From a virus, in IMG/VR virus record IMGVR_UViG_3300025131_004539, positions 1-21,167 of that record: a DNA stretch of 21,167 bases; one strand, given 5' to 3'. The position numbers and the translations under genes were made by a program. Under the pieces are notes generated by a model. The model was not told the origin of the DNA and did not search any database. It saw nothing but the letters and a program-made list of their open reading frames with translations. This document shows, piece by piece, positions 3,021 to 9,530 of this stretch (position 1 is its first letter; the number at the start of each line of letters is the position of its first letter).

Positions 3021-3049
3021 TTGACAAATGATAAATATTGTTGTATATT
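3021..3049 (+). promoter_or_regulatory. sigma70-type promoter of the 7-deazaguanine operon
   Basis: A perfect -35 box TTGACA (3021-3026), a 17-base spacer and TATATT (3044-3049) lie in the 55-base gap just upstream of queD. The position and spacing fit recognition by host RNA polymerase early or in mid infection. It is the best canonical promoter I see in the window. Confidence 0.65.
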
Positions 3050-3072
3050 AATATTAAATAAATGAGGTTATA

Positions 3073-3618
3073 ATGCAGACAATCACCCGAGAATATGGGT
3101 TTGATACTGGTCATAGAGTAATGAACGAAAGGTTCAAATGTTTTAACGCACATGGCCATCGGTATCATATTAAACTAACTTACTCTTTTCAAGATATGCA
3201 TGAGATTGGTTATATAATTGATTTCAAAGAAATAAAAAGAGTTGGTGTTCAATGGATAGATGATATGATGGACCACGGGTTTATAGTTAATCCACACGAC
3301 ACGTTACTTATTAATACTCTAATAGACATTGAAACTAAATTATATGAGATGAGTTTAAATGGTAAAGATTATTGTAATCCATCAGTAGAAAATGTAGCTC
3401 GTGAAATATTTCTAGCTCAACAGATTCTTTTTGAAGATTATAAAGGATTAGAAATACATCATATTCGTTTGAATGAAACACCAAATTGTTATACAGATGT
3501 CTATAAAGAATCAATTCCAGATATTGAGAAAGAAAATTTTTATAAAAGAAATTATGAACATATTAAAAAGTATGCTACTCATAAAGGTATAGTGGAGTAT
3601 GACGATAGAAAGCTCTAA
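3073..3618 (+). CDS. queD: 6-carboxy-5,6,7,8-tetrahydropterin synthase (QueD)
   Basis: Converts 7,8-dihydroneopterin triphosphate to 6-carboxytetrahydropterin, the second step from GTP to preQ0. The 181-residue protein has the family's zinc histidines His14 (GHRV) and His27/His29 (HGHRY), with the catalytic Cys23 just before them (KCFNAHGH). It also has DFKEIK (about 51-56), DHGFIVNPHDT, which matches the LDHxxLN element, PSVENVAREI, and the late Glu in NETPN. It is somewhat longer than the usual 120-150 residues because of a C-terminal extension. GAGGTT precedes the ATG at a good distance. It is the first gene after a canonical promoter and overlaps queE by 20 bases. 6-pyruvoyl-tetrahydropterin synthase activity is the main alternative within the family. 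Confidence 0.92.
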   Translation: MQTITREYGFDTGHRVMNERFKCFNAHGHRYHIKLTYSFQDMHEIGYIIDFKEIKRVGVQWIDDMMDHGFIVNPHDTLLINTLIDIETKLYEMSLNGKDYCNPSVENVAREIFLAQQILFEDYKGLEIHHIRLNETPNCYTDVYKESIPDIEKENFYKRNYEHIKKYATHKGIVEYDDRKL

Positions 3619-4357
3619 AAAAGTTATTCCTATAAATGAAATTTACACCTGTTTACAAGGTGAAGGAAAATTAACAGGTGTACCACATATATTAATTAGA
3701 GTTACAGGTTGTAGATTACGTTGTCAATTTGCAAATTCTTTTTGTGATACACCATATAGTTCTTGGGGACCAGAAAAAGGTAAGTTTACTTATGATGATA
3801 TTGACCAATTTTATTCAGATAATACTCATATTAAACATACTATGATTACAGGAGGAGGTCCAACTTTACATAGAGAACTGTTAGTTGATTTGTGTAACTT
3901 GGCCAAAATACATCATCATTATGTTACGATAGAAACAGAAGGTAGCGAATCAGTAAGTACTCAAGCAGATTTAATATCTCTTTCACCAAAGTTATCAAAC
4001 TCAACACCAAGACCTGGAACTTGGATGCCATATTTGAATAGAACAGTTACAGAACAAGATAAAGAGAAACACGAGAAGTGGCGTTGTAACTATGAGGCAA
4101 TGAAATTGTTACTTGACTTACATTCAGATTACCAATTAAAACCAGTTATATCAAATGAGAAAGATTTAGAAGAAGTAAAGGAATTACAAGACGAATTAGG
4201 GGTACCTAATCGAAAAGTATATTTGATGCCTGAAGGAATAGAACCCAAACAATTAAATGAAAGACGAAAATGGTTAATGGAACTGTGTACAAAAGAAGGA
4301 TATAATTTTACAGATAGGTTACATATTATAACCTATGGAGATATAAGAGGAGTTTAA
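3599..4357 (+). CDS. queE: 7-carboxy-7-deazaguanine synthase (QueE), radical SAM
   Basis: Rearranges 6-carboxytetrahydropterin to 7-carboxy-7-deazaguanine. In the 252 residues, INEIYTCLQGEGKLTGVP (about 12-29) is the typical QueE N-terminal substrate loop, followed by IRVTGCRLRC and FCDTPYSSWG. The iron-sulfur cysteines appear to be Cys38, Cys42 and Cys49 (CX3CX6C), a wider second gap than the textbook CX3CX2C. TGGGP (about 84-88) is the SAM-binding stretch, with Gly where Glu is common (TGGEP). SLSPKLSNSTP is typical of QueE. The start overlaps queD. The GGAG is only one base from the ATG, so initiation may be coupled or use the AAAGG further upstream. The stop overlaps the next ATG (TAATG). 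Confidence 0.9.
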   Translation: MTIESSKKVIPINEIYTCLQGEGKLTGVPHILIRVTGCRLRCQFANSFCDTPYSSWGPEKGKFTYDDIDQFYSDNTHIKHTMITGGGPTLHRELLVDLCNLAKIHHHYVTIETEGSESVSTQADLISLSPKLSNSTPRPGTWMPYLNRTVTEQDKEKHEKWRCNYEAMKLLLDLHSDYQLKPVISNEKDLEEVKELQDELGVPNRKVYLMPEGIEPKQLNERRKWLMELCTKEGYNFTDRLHIITYGDIRGV

Positions 4358-4575
4358 TGGTTGAAGTGACAGGTTGGTTAGGATTTATATTCGTTTTGTT
4401 AGGTTATTATTTTAATGCTAAACAGAAAATATATTGTTTTCACGTTTGGGGTTTAGGTAATATGTTATTTCTAATATATGGAATTTTAATAAATGCTAAA
4501 CCACAAATTGCAATATGTATATTTGTTTTAATGATGAATGTATATGGTTATAGACAATGGAGTAAAGTTGAGTAA
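4357..4575 (+). CDS. small integral membrane protein, 72 aa, between queE and queC
   Basis: About three hydrophobic segments: residues about 6-20 (GWLGFIFVLLGYYFN), about 28-47 (FHVWGLGNMLFLIYGILINA), and about 50-65 (QIAICIFVLMMNVYGY), with a YGYRQWSK tail. The layout faintly resembles half-size transporters (PnuC-like or SemiSWEET-like), but I cannot assign a family. It has a good AGAGGAG site, a TAATG overlap with queE, and overlaps queC by eight bases, so it is embedded in the preQ0 operon. A role in moving a pathway intermediate, precursor or cofactor is possible but only inferred from position. Confidence 0.7.
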   Translation: MVEVTGWLGFIFVLLGYYFNAKQKIYCFHVWGLGNMLFLIYGILINAKPQIAICIFVLMMNVYGYRQWSKVE

Positions 4576-5293
4576 AGAAGCTGTTTTAAGCATCAGCGGT
4601 GGATTAGATTCTACTTCATTACTAATTCATTTATTAGATAAAGACTATGATAAAGTTCATGCTATTAGTTTTTATTACGGTCAAAAGAATGAAATAGAAT
4701 TACGACGATTAGATTTAAATTTGAGATATTTAAAGTTTCATAAATTTGATATAACTCATACAAATATGAATTTATCAAGTTTTATGAGTAAGTTTAAATC
4801 TTCATTAACAAGTGATGCTATTTATGTACCGACTGGTAAGACAGATGAAAATAAAATGAAATTAAATTTTGTACCAAATAGAAATGCGATATTTTCAAGT
4901 TTAATATATGGTTATGCAGTTTCATTAGTTAAAGAGAAAGATGTTTTTGTAGATATTGGATTGGGTGTACACGACGGTACACATACAATACCACCAGATT
5001 GTACTCGTATATTTTTTGATAAATTAGAAAGTGCATTCAAAGAAGGTAATGTTGAATCAGATAAAATAAATTATTATTTACCTTATGTTGATGGATATAA
5101 ACATTTGATAGTTGAAGATGCGTTACTTTGTTGTGAGAGATTAAAATTAGATTCAGAAACTATATTCAGAAATACTTTATCGTGTTATGAACCAGAAGAT
5201 TTGGGATTATCGTGTGGAAAATGTGGAGCTTGTAATGATAGAATGTTAGCTTTCTCAACTTTAGAAGTTAAGGATCCAATAAAATATGAGTAA
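4568..5293 (+). CDS. queC: 7-cyano-7-deazaguanine (preQ0) synthase (QueC)
   Basis: ATP- and ammonia-dependent conversion of 7-carboxy-7-deazaguanine to preQ0. The frame is open from ATG 4538, but I place the start at TTG 4568: GGAG at 4559-4562 stands five bases before it, and the protein then begins [12 protein letters not shown], as QueC proteins do. From that start it is 241 residues. SGGLDSTS (10-17) is the ATP pyrophosphatase P-loop, followed by [20 protein letters not shown] and GVHDGTH. The four zinc cysteines are Cys206, 216, 219 and 222 ([18 protein letters not shown]). It overlaps the membrane-protein gene before it and folE after it. Confidence 0.94.
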
Positions 5294-5915
5294 ATTAAAA
5301 TATGCCAATGGCAATAAAATATTAAAAGAATGGGAAAAAGACGAGATGATTCAAGAAGCGGCTGAGTATTATGGTCGTTATATGACAGCTCTTGGGTTCG
5401 ATTGGAAGAATGACCCAAATTCATCAGATACACCAGAACGAGTAGCTCGAGCTTTTGTAAATGATTTAGCTCAGGGTGTATATAGTAAACCACCAAAGAT
5501 TACAGCATTTGATAATGTTGATGGTTATGATGGTATGGTATTTCAAGGTAATATTAAATTACATTCATTATGTTCTCATCATCATTTACCGTTTGTAGGT
5601 AAAGCGCATGTAGCATATCTTCCTACAGCAGAAGGTAAGGTTATCGGACTTAGTAAGTTAAATCGTATTGTAGAATTTTATTCAAGACGACCTCAAGTAC
5701 AAGAAAACTTAACAATGCAGATACATGATCATATTAATGATGTATGTGAGAATAATATAGGTGTAGCTGTTATGATTGAAGCTAATCATATGTGTACTTG
5801 TGTTCGAGGTGTTAAACATAATTCTATTATGAAGACGGCTAAGTTAAGTGGTAAGTTTAAAGATACAGATAGAGCAAGAGAAGAATTTTATGATTTTATA
5901 AGGGATTTAAAATGA
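5286..5915 (+). CDS. folE: GTP cyclohydrolase I (FolE)
   Basis: Opens GTP to 7,8-dihydroneopterin triphosphate, the committed step of the preQ0 route and also of folate synthesis. At 209 residues it is of normal length. [12 protein letters not shown] (about 47-58), [20 protein letters not shown] (94-113), [20 protein letters not shown] (121-140) and [11 protein letters not shown] (168-178) are the family signatures. Zinc ligands are probably Cys96, His99 and Cys170. The Glu of the usual CEHH is Ser here, a small deviation. It overlaps queC by eight bases and the phosphoribosyltransferase by four. Having folE next to queD, queE and queC gives the phage a complete GTP-to-preQ0 set. Confidence 0.95.
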
Positions 5916-6349
5916 AAGAATTTATTAGTTGGAATTTAGTTGATGAGTGTGTAACTGATATTGCAGATTATTTACGTCAAACAAATGTTAAGTATGAAGG
6001 TGTATATGGTATACCTCGAGGTGGAGTAATACTGGCAGTAATATTAAGTCATATATTAGATATACCTTATTTAGCTAATTTAGATAATATGTATGATAAG
6101 AAATTTATTATTATTGACGACATAGCAGATACTGGTACGACATTAAATACATATAAAAAATTAGATGTTTGTGAAAACGCATGTTATGTTACAATACACG
6201 AACACGAACAATCAATTGTAAAACCTGATTACGCAGTAATAGATAAAGAAGATAAATGGATTGTGTATCCGTGGGAAGATGAAGAGTCAGAAGAAATTCA
6301 AGATTATATAGCAGTAAAAAATATGGTAATAGTGAATCCCGACAAATGA
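5912..6349 (+). CDS. purine phosphoribosyltransferase-like protein (Gpt/XGPRT type)
   Basis: A 145-residue type I phosphoribosyltransferase fold. [18 protein letters not shown] (about 33-50) is the first loop, and [14 protein letters not shown] (about 65-78) is the PRPP-binding motif with its two Asp residues. DKWIVYPWE (about 113-121) matches the C-terminal Trp/Pro-Trp region of bacterial xanthine-guanine phosphoribosyltransferase. The expected reaction is purine base plus PRPP to nucleoside monophosphate. It has an AGGGA site, and four-base overlaps link it to folE and the transglycosylase gene. A likely job is salvage of the guanine released when DpdA exchanges bases. The substrate could also be xanthine, hypoxanthine or a deazapurine, and sequence alone cannot tell. 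Confidence 0.8.
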
Positions 6350-7530
6350 GTAAGTTTATATATTTTCCATCATTTTCGGCTGGTGCAATGGGGAGTTCAT
6401 TAGCTAAAAATGTCAAATTGAAAAACGGTTTATCTATTAGATTCTATAGTGAAGAGTTTCCTGAGAAGTATAGGCATACAGATATATTGATAACCGCAGG
6501 ACATCATTATAGAAAAGAAGATTATAAAAATGACTTAGGATTAACAGATAAAAATTTAGTTATGGGTGATTCAGGTGGATATCAAATAGCTTCAGGAGCA
6601 ATTAAATGGGATAAGTTAATTAGAGAAAAAATATTTAATTGGTTAGAACATAATTCTGATATAGCAATGAATTTAGATATCCCACCTAAAATAAAGTATG
6701 AAGGTATGTATGAAGAATGTTTAAAAATTAGTAAAGACAATTTTAAATATTTTGCAGATAAACAAAGTGGTAATACAGATTTTTTAAATATAGTTCAGGG
6801 TACAAATGAGTTTGAATATGTAAACTGGTATAATGAAATGAAAGATTTTCCATTTCAAGGTTGGGCTGTAGGTGGTGGAGGTAGAAACGTTTACACCTTT
6901 ATGTCAGGAGTAATGTCTTTGTTGAATGGCAAAGAACATTTAAAAGATACAAATAAGTATTTTCATATTTTAGGTATATCTAAAATTTCAGATTTTTTAA
7001 TGTTAAATCAATTACAAAAATCTTTAAATGAAGTCGGGTCTGACATAGTTGTTACAACTGATAGTTCTTCACCAGATAGAGCTGTAGTATTCGGTTCTTA
7101 TTATTATAATTACAATTTTAAGAAGGCCACTTTTCAATCTCTTAATATACCTAAGTATGATGATAGTTTTCAGAATCAAGTATTTAAACATCTACCCGTA
7201 TCTACTGAATTTGATAATGAGTATTTGAGAGAAGCATTAACTTGGGATGATACTATAAAATGGAAAGGTCAATGTACTATGGCAATACGTTTACATAATT
7301 TTATGGTTTTTAAAGAAGCGATTGAAAAAGCTGAATATTATGTTTACAGTCATGATTATATTTTAAAACAAGTTTTGTCTAATGATATGTATGAACTTTT
7401 AATGTCTCTTGATAAAATGGTTAAGGGTAATAACCCGAGAACAGTATTTGAAAAGTATAAACCGTTATATAAAAAATTGAGTAATACTAATACTGATGAA
7501 GTTGATATAATTAAAAACAAATTTTTTTAA
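6346..7530 (+). CDS. dpdA: DpdA-like DNA transglycosylase (TGT superfamily)
   Basis: A tRNA-guanine transglycosylase-like enzyme of 394 residues. Its phage relatives exchange guanine in DNA for preQ0 or another 7-deazaguanine. Visible TGT elements are MGDSGGYQIASG (73-84, general acid/base Asp75), LNIVQG (147-152), GWAVGGGG (172-179) and TTDSSSPDRA (237-246), with Asp239 as probable nucleophile. LHNFM near 317 resembles the TGT tail. The CxCxxC zinc site of tRNA-type TGTs is not present; only one Cys is seen near there. The N-terminus (FIYFPSFSAGAM) is unlike bacterial Tgt. It comes last in the que/folE operon, which supports DNA modification rather than tRNA queuosine. No strong Shine-Dalgarno site is seen, so translation is probably coupled. 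Confidence 0.85.
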   Translation: MSKFIYFPSFSAGAMGSSLAKNVKLKNGLSIRFYSEEFPEKYRHTDILITAGHHYRKEDYKNDLGLTDKNLVMGDSGGYQIASGAIKWDKLIREKIFNWLEHNSDIAMNLDIPPKIKYEGMYEECLKISKDNFKYFADKQSGNTDFLNIVQGTNEFEYVNWYNEMKDFPFQGWAVGGGGRNVYTFMSGVMSLLNGKEHLKDTNKYFHILGISKISDFLMLNQLQKSLNEVGSDIVVTTDSSSPDRAVVFGSYYYNYNFKKATFQSLNIPKYDDSFQNQVFKHLPVSTEFDNEYLREALTWDDTIKWKGQCTMAIRLHNFMVFKEAIEKAEYYVYSHDYILKQVLSNDMYELLMSLDKMVKGNNPRTVFEKYKPLYKKLSNTNTDEVDIIKNKFF

Positions 7531-7541
7531 TAGGAGTAAAA

Positions 7542-8360
7542 ATGAAATTAACACCAGAACAATTACAAGATAAATGGAATGAAGTAATTGAACTAATTAC
7601 AGATACGTTTGAAGGTGAACGTAGAGATAACATTTTAAAAATGTGTGAATTTTTTAAAGATAGAATGATGTTCGCACCAGCGAGTGGAGTGATATATTAT
7701 CACAACGCATTTCCAGGAGGTTATGTATGTCATATTTTAAATGTTACAAAATTTGCTTTAAGATTGTATGAACTGTACAAAGAGTTAGGATTACATACTT
7801 CAGAATACAATAAAGAGAATATTATATTTTGTACACTACATCACGATTTAGGTAAAGTGGGTAATTTAGAGTATGATTATTATATTCCTAATGAATCAGA
7901 ATGGCATAGAATAAATCAAGGTAAGATGTATGGTTATGATGAGAACTTACATTGGATGACTGTTACTGATAGGTCTGTATGGTTGTTAAGTCAATTTGAT
8001 ATTAAGATGAATGAAGTTGAATATCTCGCTTTAAGATTAACTGATGGTATGTATGAAAAGGCTAATAAAGATTATTTTATGGGATACGGTGAAGGTAAAA
8101 ATTTAAAAACTAATTTACCACATCTTTTACATAACGCAGATAGTTTAGCTACTCGATGGGAAAAAGAACAGTATATGTTTAGTTCAGATTCAAATATTAA
8201 ATACGAAGAAATTTTTAATTCAGAATTGAAAGTAGAAAGAGAACGAGAAGAAGCTGAAGCTGTAGAAAATATGAAACAAGCATTAGTTAAAGATGAAACA
8301 CCTGATATACTTTCTGAAAAATCAAAAGACTTATTCAATGAGTTGTTTGGAGACAAATGA
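7542..8360 (+). CDS. HD-domain phosphohydrolase
   Basis: A 272-residue protein with the metal-binding pattern H...HD...D: His64 (GGYVCHILNV), His101-Asp102 (TLHHDLGKVG) and Asp200 (HNADSLATRWE). The segment VIYYHNAFPGGYVCH is close to the helix-1 region of YhaM-type and related HD nucleases or nucleotidases. The C-terminal 60 residues are acidic and probably coiled. The family hydrolyses nucleotides or RNA ends, and the substrate here is unknown. A nucleotide-pool role beside the deazaguanine operon is plausible but unproven. The ribosome binding site TAGGAG is well placed before the ATG, after an 11-base gap from the dpdA-like gene. Confidence 0.8.
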   Translation: MKLTPEQLQDKWNEVIELITDTFEGERRDNILKMCEFFKDRMMFAPASGVIYYHNAFPGGYVCHILNVTKFALRLYELYKELGLHTSEYNKENIIFCTLHHDLGKVGNLEYDYYIPNESEWHRINQGKMYGYDENLHWMTVTDRSVWLLSQFDIKMNEVEYLALRLTDGMYEKANKDYFMGYGEGKNLKTNLPHLLHNADSLATRWEKEQYMFSSDSNIKYEEIFNSELKVEREREEAEAVENMKQALVKDETPDILSEKSKDLFNELFGDK

Positions 8361-8632
8361 TGTGGGTAGAAATAATATTAGCTATAGAAACTGTAGCGTT
8401 TATAGTTGAAGGTTATATAATTTGGAACTTAAATAAAAAAACCGAAATGTTAGAAACTTGGGTAGAAGATTTTAGTCAAAGAATAGAAACAGTTCAAACT
8501 GATTTGAAAGTTATTGATGCTAAAGGAGCTTTTGAATCAGATGATGAAGTAGGTGCAATATTTGAACAGATAAAAGAAACTGTAAATGAGTTAGATAATT
8601 TAAGAGGAGAAGAGATTGATGCCAGCAACTAA
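8357..8632 (+). CDS. small membrane-anchored coiled-coil protein, 91 aa
   Basis: One hydrophobic N-terminal segment (VEIILAIETVAFIVEGYIIW, about residues 4-23) is followed by an acidic helical region with heptad-like spacing (TEMLETWVEDFSQRIETVQ onward). Starts at ATG 8357 or the adjacent ATG 8360, with GGAG just upstream. It overlaps the HD gene and the sigma-factor gene, so it is in the same unit. It could be a scaffold at the inner membrane. No family is recognised. Confidence 0.65.
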   Translation: MMWVEIILAIETVAFIVEGYIIWNLNKKTEMLETWVEDFSQRIETVQTDLKVIDAKGAFESDDEVGAIFEQIKETVNELDNLRGEEIDASN

Positions 8633-9398
8633 ACAACAAACGAAAAAGATGATAGATGCGATAAAGCAACCTGTTAAAGTTGTGAAGAAAAAAAGACGTA
8701 AAAAGAGTAAAATGTATTTTGGACAACCAGTTCAAGATGCAATTATTCGATATAATGCGAGTTCAAATCCAGCTATAAAAAATAGAATTTATGAAGAACA
8801 TATAGCAGCCGCATTTGAAAAAATGGCAGAGAATTTAATACATACTTTTAAATTTTATTATTTTGATGTACCACTTGATAATGTTAAACACGAAGTGGTA
8901 TCTTTTATGGTATTACAATTACCCAAATATAAACAAGAAAAAGGTAGAGCGTTTTCATATTTTTCTATAGTAGGTAAAAATTATTTAATTTTAAATAATA
9001 ACAATAATTATAAAAAAATGAAAATACATGATGATATTATAACTTTAGATTATAAAAGAAATGTATTTGGTGAAAGTGAAAAATCTGAAGTTGATGAATT
9101 TAATAAAGAATTTGTAAATCAAATGTTAGAATATTGGGAAAATAATATTACAAATGTATTTCGTAGACAAAAAGATATTTTAGTAGCTGATGCAGTATTA
9201 GAATTATTTAGACGAAGATTAAACATTGAAAACTTTAATAAAAAAGCTTTGTATATTATGATTAGAGAAATGACGGGTTCTAATACACAACATATCACAA
9301 GAGTAATAAATCAAATGAAAAAATTCTATGCTAATATGATAACAGAATTTTCAGAGACAGGAGATATAGATACCTCAAATACAGGAAGTATTTTTTAA
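8619..9398 (+). CDS. gp55-like late-transcription sigma factor
   Basis: A 259-residue protein from ATG 8619, placed there because AGAGGAGA stands about nine bases upstream. A basic N-terminal tail (KVVKKKRRKKSK) is followed by a sigma-region-2-like part: AFEKMAENLIHTFKFYYF, KHEVVSFMVLQLPKYKQEKG, and RAFSYFSIVGKNYLI (about residues 110-125), which is the element shared by T4 gp55 and its marine relatives. The C-terminal half has a helical region with REMTGSNTQHITRVINQMK that may bind DNA. It is expected to redirect host RNA polymerase to TATAAATA-type late promoters. Its position just before the structural genes fits this. The homology is judged by eye from short motifs. Confidence 0.75.
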   Translation: MPATKQQTKKMIDAIKQPVKVVKKKRRKKSKMYFGQPVQDAIIRYNASSNPAIKNRIYEEHIAAAFEKMAENLIHTFKFYYFDVPLDNVKHEVVSFMVLQLPKYKQEKGRAFSYFSIVGKNYLILNNNNNYKKMKIHDDIITLDYKRNVFGESEKSEVDEFNKEFVNQMLEYWENNITNVFRRQKDILVADAVLELFRRRLNIENFNKKALYIMIREMTGSNTQHITRVINQMKKFYANMITEFSETGDIDTSNTGSIF

Positions 9399-9433: not shown

Positions 9434-9509
9434 GGGGCTCGGGAATGCTTGGGGTGTTCGCCTCCCTTGCACGGAGGATATCAGCGGGGTTCGAATCCCC
9501 GGAGCTCCA
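9434..9509 (+). tRNA. tRNA-Ala (anticodon UGC)
   Basis: A 76-base cloverleaf. The acceptor GGGGCTC (9434-9440) pairs with GAGCTCC (9502-9508), including the G3:U70 alanine identity pair. The D stem is GAAT/GTTC. The anticodon stem is CCTCC/GGAGG with loop CTTGCAC and anticodon TGC at 9468-9470. The T arm is CGGGG-TTCGAAT-CCCCG, and the discriminator is A9509. CCA is not encoded. The variable region ATATCAG is seven bases, longer than the usual four or five. It lies between the sigma-factor gene and a strong terminator, probably cotranscribed with the middle operon. It shares the alanine identity element with the phage tmRNA. Confidence 0.92.
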
Positions 9510-9530
9510 CAATAAGAAGATTTCATTAAC

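Follow-up and report, generated by a model that had tools for sequence, protein, structure and literature searches.

What does a T4-like phage gain from carrying its own genes for the base preQ0, and what becomes of the guanine that such a base would displace from DNA? The question is raised by IMG/VR virus record IMGVR_UViG_3300025131_004539, which we analyzed over its entire length of 21,167 bases (hereafter, the window; it is a fragment of a genome, has a GC content of 31%, and contains T4-like baseplate genes). An operon on a single strand, at positions 3073-7530, consists of QueD, QueE, a PnuC-like gene, QueC, FolE, a phosphoribosyltransferase (PRT) and a TGT/DpdA-like gene, in that order. 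We regard it as probable, though well short of certain, that this operon is a phage DNA-modification cassette which inserts preQ0, and whose PRT recycles the guanine released in the process. Phages with 7-deazaguanine in their DNA are already known, and modifications of this type bear on restriction, on the use of phages, and on sequencing. Judged from its genes, the operon appears to be a real and complete cassette of this known type; its new aspect would be the combination of a DpdA2-like enzyme with the PRT and the PnuC-like protein.

The mechanism we propose is as follows. FolE, QueD, QueE and QueC would convert GTP to preQ0, the DpdA2-like enzyme would replace guanine with preQ0 once the phage DNA has been synthesized, and the preQ0 in the DNA would act as a shield against host restriction. 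If DpdA is taken as a base exchanger, each exchange would eject one free guanine at the cost of one GTP. The PRT would join this guanine to phosphoribosyl pyrophosphate (PRPP), yielding GMP that kinases could return to GTP, the substrate of FolE. Such a loop would explain why the PRT gene lies beside FolE, and elsewhere is fused to it; it would also save purine and clear a competing product of the exchange. The modification level measured in phage CAjan, for example, amounts to about 8,400 exchanged guanines in each genome, so that 100 progeny would correspond to about 1.4 mM guanine in a volume of 1 fL, a concentration that is large beside normal GTP pools.

The synthesis genes are recognized by family and by motif (all features located here lie on the + strand). 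QueD, a 6-carboxytetrahydropterin synthase (3073-3618), matches PF01242 (E 2.4e-25) and PHROG 2389, the QueD family (E 6e-25). QueE (3599-4357) matches PHROG 2076 (E 2e-44) and has the cysteine motif CX3CX6C, which is retained in relatives L004 and L022. QueC, the 7-cyano-7-deazaguanine (preQ0) synthase (4538-5293), matches PF06508 (E 1.4e-37), with an SGGLDST loop and CX9CX2CX2C, and FolE, a GTP cyclohydrolase I (5286-5915), matches PF01227 (E 6.4e-51). All four proteins are thus present with their motifs, as a first-pass annotation of the sequence had claimed in describing a full GTP-to-preQ0 set. That annotation had also placed these four and the TGT-like enzyme in an overlapping operon behind one promoter. 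Each of the five enzymes lies where it was placed, every frame is open, and the overlaps measure 1-38 bp; the gene list was incomplete, however, since the PnuC-like gene (4357-4575) and the PRT gene (5912-6349) also belong to the operon. The ratio dN/dS is 0.13-0.42 for QueD, QueE, FolE, PRT and DpdA; in the small PnuC-like gene it reaches 0.5-0.6.

The enzyme on which insertion would depend is the DpdA2-like transglycosylase (6346-7530), whose proposed activity is the exchange of preQ0 for guanine in DNA. Its match to PF01702 (E 1e-4) falls below the curated cut-off. Of its catalytic residues, D75, D111 and D239 do not vary across 56 related sequences, and Q151 hardly does. An AlphaFold2 model built from the alignment of these 56 sequences has a pLDDT of 92.9 and a pTM of 0.91 (an earlier model from 18 close sequences, with a pLDDT of 46.5, was set aside), and it adopts the TGT fold over almost the entire protein: compared with human TGT it yields Z 23.9 and an rmsd of 3.9 over 311 residues, and its top 26 PDB matches in Foldseek are all TGT-family enzymes, including the DNA preQ0 insertase DpdA (7ui4). 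The best named viral models are the TGT of Achromobacter phage Motura and R9TGF0 of Vibrio phage nt-1. By sequence the protein groups with those of the PA5oct-like, Phosso, 2.275.O, PhiXhv, GR7B and Illi-2 phages, and its best pairwise matches are jumbo-phage homologues. When family profiles are compared, nt-1 DpdA2 is matched at 91% and 9g DpdA1 at 1%. (An alignment of 10 DpdA sequences was too divergent for scanning the collection.) PADLOC gives no match for the protein.

The first-pass annotation had named clear placement with Tgt in an HMM search as a result that would overturn its reading. There is no clear placement with tRNA-acting Tgt: the Tgt models score 21.8, 19.4 and 18.8 bits, against curated cut-offs of 26.3, 350 and 47.6. 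Its other argument, that the lack of zinc-site cysteines distinguishes the protein from cellular Tgt, fails. The cysteine triad of the site CXCXXC...H is indeed absent in the window clade, where H317 is retained, but relatives whose DpdA is about 34-45% identical (L109, L114 and L117, for example), many of them near similar genes, keep C..C..C..H. The zinc was therefore lost late, within the window clade, and its loss cannot separate DpdA from Tgt. Rather, it is because of the genes that accompany the protein (in this phage it lies with those for preQ0 synthesis) that we consider insertion of preQ0 into DNA likely.

The PRT (5912-6349) is xanthine-guanine PRT-like, and we propose that it salvages the guanine released by DpdA on the basis of family, motifs and association with the cassette. 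It matches PF00156 (E 6e-9), and by profile both the purine PRT 1vdm (E 3e-20) and E. coli XGPRT, 1a95 (1a95-1a98; E 8e-11). Homology to Gpt extends to the pyrophosphate, PRPP and base loops, and the motifs RGG, DDIxDT and WIVYPWE are invariant. With the window PRT as query, we inspected the best 80 loci, a sample selected for its resemblance to the window. Of the 80, 75 contain a preQ0 gene or DpdA, the PRT lies at most 150 bp from FolE in 56, and 68 have some DpdA, which may be of the window type (33/80), the type found in Flavobacterium phage immuto (32/80) or the DpdA1 type (3/80). Because this sample is biased towards the window, the scan was repeated with two distant PRT queries. A preQ0 gene or DpdA occurs within 6 kb in 62/80 loci for the PRT of Synechococcus phage BUCT-ZZ01, and in 14/24 loci for that of Brevundimonas phage MaInes. 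By way of comparison, QueE has matches in 175 of 50,697 phage records, a figure which is not a background rate for unrelated genes. The association between PRT and cassette is strong but not exclusive.

The two proteins may also be one. A PRT-FolE fusion occurs in 34 sequenced phage records, where it is annotated merely as GTP cyclohydrolase. In the Queuovirinae Quinobequin-P09, NP1 and VpKK5 the PRT makes up the N-terminal ~115 residues of FolE, and the fusion recurs in relatives that infect Stenotrophomonas, Xanthomonas, Variovorax and Sphingomonas, at IMG/VR loci L387-L389, and at L278:5893-6786, L279:4917-5819 and L283:2576-3469. These Queuovirinae resemble the window in that their 7-deazaguanine cluster holds both PRT and FolE, but differ in that the two form a single protein and that their DpdA is of another type. 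Quinobequin-P09 is listed as a 7-deazaguanine phage (PMC6884629). In the literature that we found (subscription papers lay mostly outside the search), there was nothing relevant on a PRT or glycosyltransferase with 7-deazaguanine, the fusion goes unmentioned for such clusters, and the fate of the guanine expelled by DpdA has apparently not been asked. The PRT turns up again and again in cassettes that are not related to one another, and some of the Pseudomonas and Vibrio phages in which it is joined to FolE are well studied, so that its role is testable in existing isolates.

Several observations weigh against the proposal that the cassette inserts preQ0 and recycles guanine. The fold of the transglycosylase is no nearer to DpdA (7ui4 is in place 17 of the Foldseek matches) than to tRNA TGTs, and a match to E. 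coli Tgt persists in the comparison of family profiles, at 84%. In the PRT, His98 aligns with the purine-contacting lysine of Gpt, which presumably touches O6 of the base, and this substitution leaves the specificity of the PRT not certain. The PRT loci that lie outside the association are mostly solo PRTs with no preQ0 genes, while cassettes of the 9g and Rosebush types have no PRT. Finally, phage nt-1, which has DpdA2, shows trace modification only (PMC6884629).

Which base would the DNA finally contain? Plain dPreQ0 is the simplest guess, as it was in the first-pass annotation, because QueC is present, none of 24 related records has a QueF that scores above the cut-off, and the alternative end module described below, a PHROG 17812 protein with a glycosyltransferase, is absent from the window-type relatives, which do have QueC. 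The earlier statement that there is no downstream reductase likewise stands for QueF in the relatives searched; ArcS, Gat and DpdC were not searched for. CAjan and Rosebush, which have preQ0 genes and DpdA but no amidotransferase, provide a precedent, since dPreQ0 was measured in both, and nt-1 DNA contains dPreQ0 as well (PMC6884629). A gene of phage or host located beyond the 21-kb window might, on the other hand, turn the base into ADG, archaeosine or preQ1. The window is, after all, a genome fragment, and nt-1 DNA holds several derivatives (PMC6884629). QueF and the PHROG 17812/glycosyltransferase module are nevertheless absent in window-type records of up to 53.7 kb, and we judge a further-modified base unlikely, while by no means negligible.

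The nearness of the overall fold to tRNA TGTs, together with the zinc site retained in more distant family members, would fit a different substrate altogether: the enzyme may modify tRNA, so that the operon raises the queuosine-type tRNA modification of the host. This we consider improbable. Bacterial Tgt uses preQ1, yet no QueF rises above the cut-off in relatives; the scores lie far under the Tgt cut-offs; and the protein groups with phage DpdA-type proteins.

Alternatively, the PRT may act on preQ0 itself, forming a ribonucleotide that becomes a modified dGTP for the phage polymerase, with DpdA as a back-up. A PRT homologue is carried by Campylobacter phage CP220, and a modified-dGTP route was formerly proposed for such phages. 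But a DpdA accompanies the PRT in 68 of its 80 loci, and the PRT is fused to or beside FolE, the step that uses GTP, rather than QueC. Moreover, its homology is to guanine/xanthine PRTs, and it occurs in cassettes which have no QueC. We therefore give this route only a small chance. The TGT-like enzyme might instead modify a protein, as Cap10 of a CBASS defence system appears to (PDB 9ntn), and in its favour the fold comparison does give a weak match to Cap10-CdnD (E 1.4e-4). This is very improbable: all 26 better-ranked PDB matches are TGT/DpdA enzymes, and the operon has no CBASS-like partner.

The end of the pathway varies among relatives. Within the window clade, QueC occurs without the glycosyltransferase or PHROG 17812 at 40 loci, 16 have PHROG 17812 and the glycosyltransferase without QueC, 3 have neither end module and a methyltransferase instead, and none mixes the modules; these 59 loci come from overlapping scans that include repeated contigs, and are not independent cases. 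In the QueC-less cassettes (L209:7387-8707, L218:5243-8547, L229:5809-7566, and similar others), a 115-aa PHROG 17812 protein is accompanied by a GT-B glycosyltransferase (a weak PF00534 match, PHROG 4356) directly upstream of DpdA. L218 additionally carries a methyltransferase and a 283-aa protein without a Pfam match. At the level of whole records, QueC is absent in relatives of 101-173 kb. It is likewise absent in the complete PA5oct-like and BUCT-ZZ01 genomes, both of which carry PHROG 17812 and the glycosyltransferase; phiST has PHROG 17812 and lacks both QueC and a glycosyltransferase of the PA5oct/BUCT-ZZ01 type. Of all isolates, the PA5oct-like phages of Pseudomonas have the DpdA type nearest to that of the window (27.6% identity, E 3e-15), but differ from the window in lacking QueC and in that the glycosyltransferase and PHROG 17812 follow DpdA.

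The mutual exclusion of QueC and the PHROG 17812/glycosyltransferase module predicts that sister phages with the QueC-less module carry 7-deazaguanines other than preQ0, possibly bearing a sugar. The switch thus hints at undescribed DNA bases in phages that can be grown, such as PA5oct. Generalizing further, we suggest tentatively, and with more doubt than confidence, that the 7-deazaguanine cassettes of phages are built from modules and recycle guanine. A Gpt-type PRT, either separate or joined to FolE, would return DpdA-released guanine to GTP, and an exchangeable end module would determine the product: QueC for preQ0, as in the window, or PHROG 17812 with the GT-B glycosyltransferase beside DpdA, to which a methyltransferase and one more gene are sometimes added, for a glycosylated 7-deazaguanine that would constitute a new class of DNA hypermodification. 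The recurrent PRT, chiefly in its unannotated FolE fusions, and the end-module switch are the parts that merit the attention of specialists.

The PHROG 17812 protein is perhaps DpdL. We also tried reading it as a second QueD ('QueD2') from its HRHMFHI stretch; the profile comparison with QueD gave 1.8%, and this homology is unsupported. A third arrangement, at L178, L181 and L270, comprises QueD, QueE, FolE, DpdA, a methyltransferase and PRT, without QueC or a glycosyltransferase.

Among described systems, the Vibrio phage nt-1 cluster is similar in that preQ0 genes and a DpdA2-type enzyme occur in a T4-like phage; the two DpdA proteins are about 24% identical, with homology at E ~1e-3 by BLAST in addition to the profile match above. 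It differs in gene order, in having ArcS (PMC6884629), and in that no PRT is annotated there. Escherichia phage CAjan and Mycobacterium phage Rosebush share the minimal set of FolE, QueD, QueE, QueC and DpdA, without an amidotransferase, but their DpdA belongs to another subfamily to which no sequence similarity was detected (tested with 9g and Ares), and the Rosebush-type cluster of Ares is without a PRT. The cluster of Flavobacterium phage immuto 2-6A, by comparison, does unite QueD, QueE, PRT (26% identical), FolE and DpdA; its DpdA, however, is short and has no detectable similarity to that of the window, and the cluster includes QueF and a PurN-like gene.

Searching with the DpdA-like protein as query returned 26 viral contigs, at 71-100% identity, nearly all with the same gene order where the contig extends far enough. 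To characterize the genomic slot, we anchored on the gp55-like sigma-factor gene downstream (8616-9398; named from phage context, not from a family search), which gave 41 loci where the sequence extends 3 kb or more beyond the upstream side of the gene for an HD-domain protein (7542-8360). DpdA and PRT are both present in 21 of the 41 (in 19 of the 21, two or more preQ0 genes are also visible), whereas the other 20 carry neither PRT, DpdA nor preQ0 genes, yet keep HD beside the gp55-like gene. The cassette is all-or-none at this position, and is therefore an optional block in a fixed slot upstream of HD/gp55. The HD protein is a core neighbour, and is thereby ruled out as a member of the operon; its profile found no useful match in the PDB. 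At L220 and L245 a PRT homologue occupies the slot with no preQ0 genes in view, and at L245 it stands beside GuaB/C-like genes.

The sigma70-type promoter at 3021-3049 (TTGACA-17-TATATT, an 11/12 match) scores highest among 70 sites, where chance alone would give 70.5, and on its own it is statistically unremarkable. Its retention at the same position upstream of QueD in five divergent relatives (L004, L007, L012, L009 and L209) makes it probably real. The true start of QueC is probably the TTG at 4568, because GGAG lies at 4559-4562 and because in L004 a stop codon precedes the later start. A QueC dN/dS of 3.6 against L004 was discarded as an artefact, as the stretch compared begins 5' of the true start codon and runs through a stop.

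The 72-aa PnuC/SemiSWEET-like half transporter (4357-4575), between QueE and QueC, has the same position in relatives and 21 invariant columns across nine of them. Its match to PF04973 (E 1.5e-5) scores 25.5 bits, slightly under the family cut-off of 27.3, and amounts to a resemblance; the protein might conceivably carry a precursor across the membrane. QueD is swapped for a distant version in some relatives (27% in L009), and in L007 (779-1321) it is 100% identical to that of the window, with cassette neighbours at 60-87%, a sign of what would be recent gene exchange.

Elsewhere in the window, a tRNA-Ala (tgc) at 9434-9510 separates the gp55-like gene from the baseplate genes. The nearest relatives of the gp6-like protein are in Microcystis phage Mel-JY01 (47%), an uncultured 484-kb phage (42%) and Flavobacterium phage immuto (40%). 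Upstream of the operon, at 563-1579, is an IMP dehydrogenase/GMP reductase-like gene without CBS domains. Its top PDB match is the IMP dehydrogenase 1vrd (E 1e-75), than which it has a shorter flap in the alignment. A homologue occupies the same region in relatives both with and without the cassette, and the gene may set the supply of guanine nucleotides.

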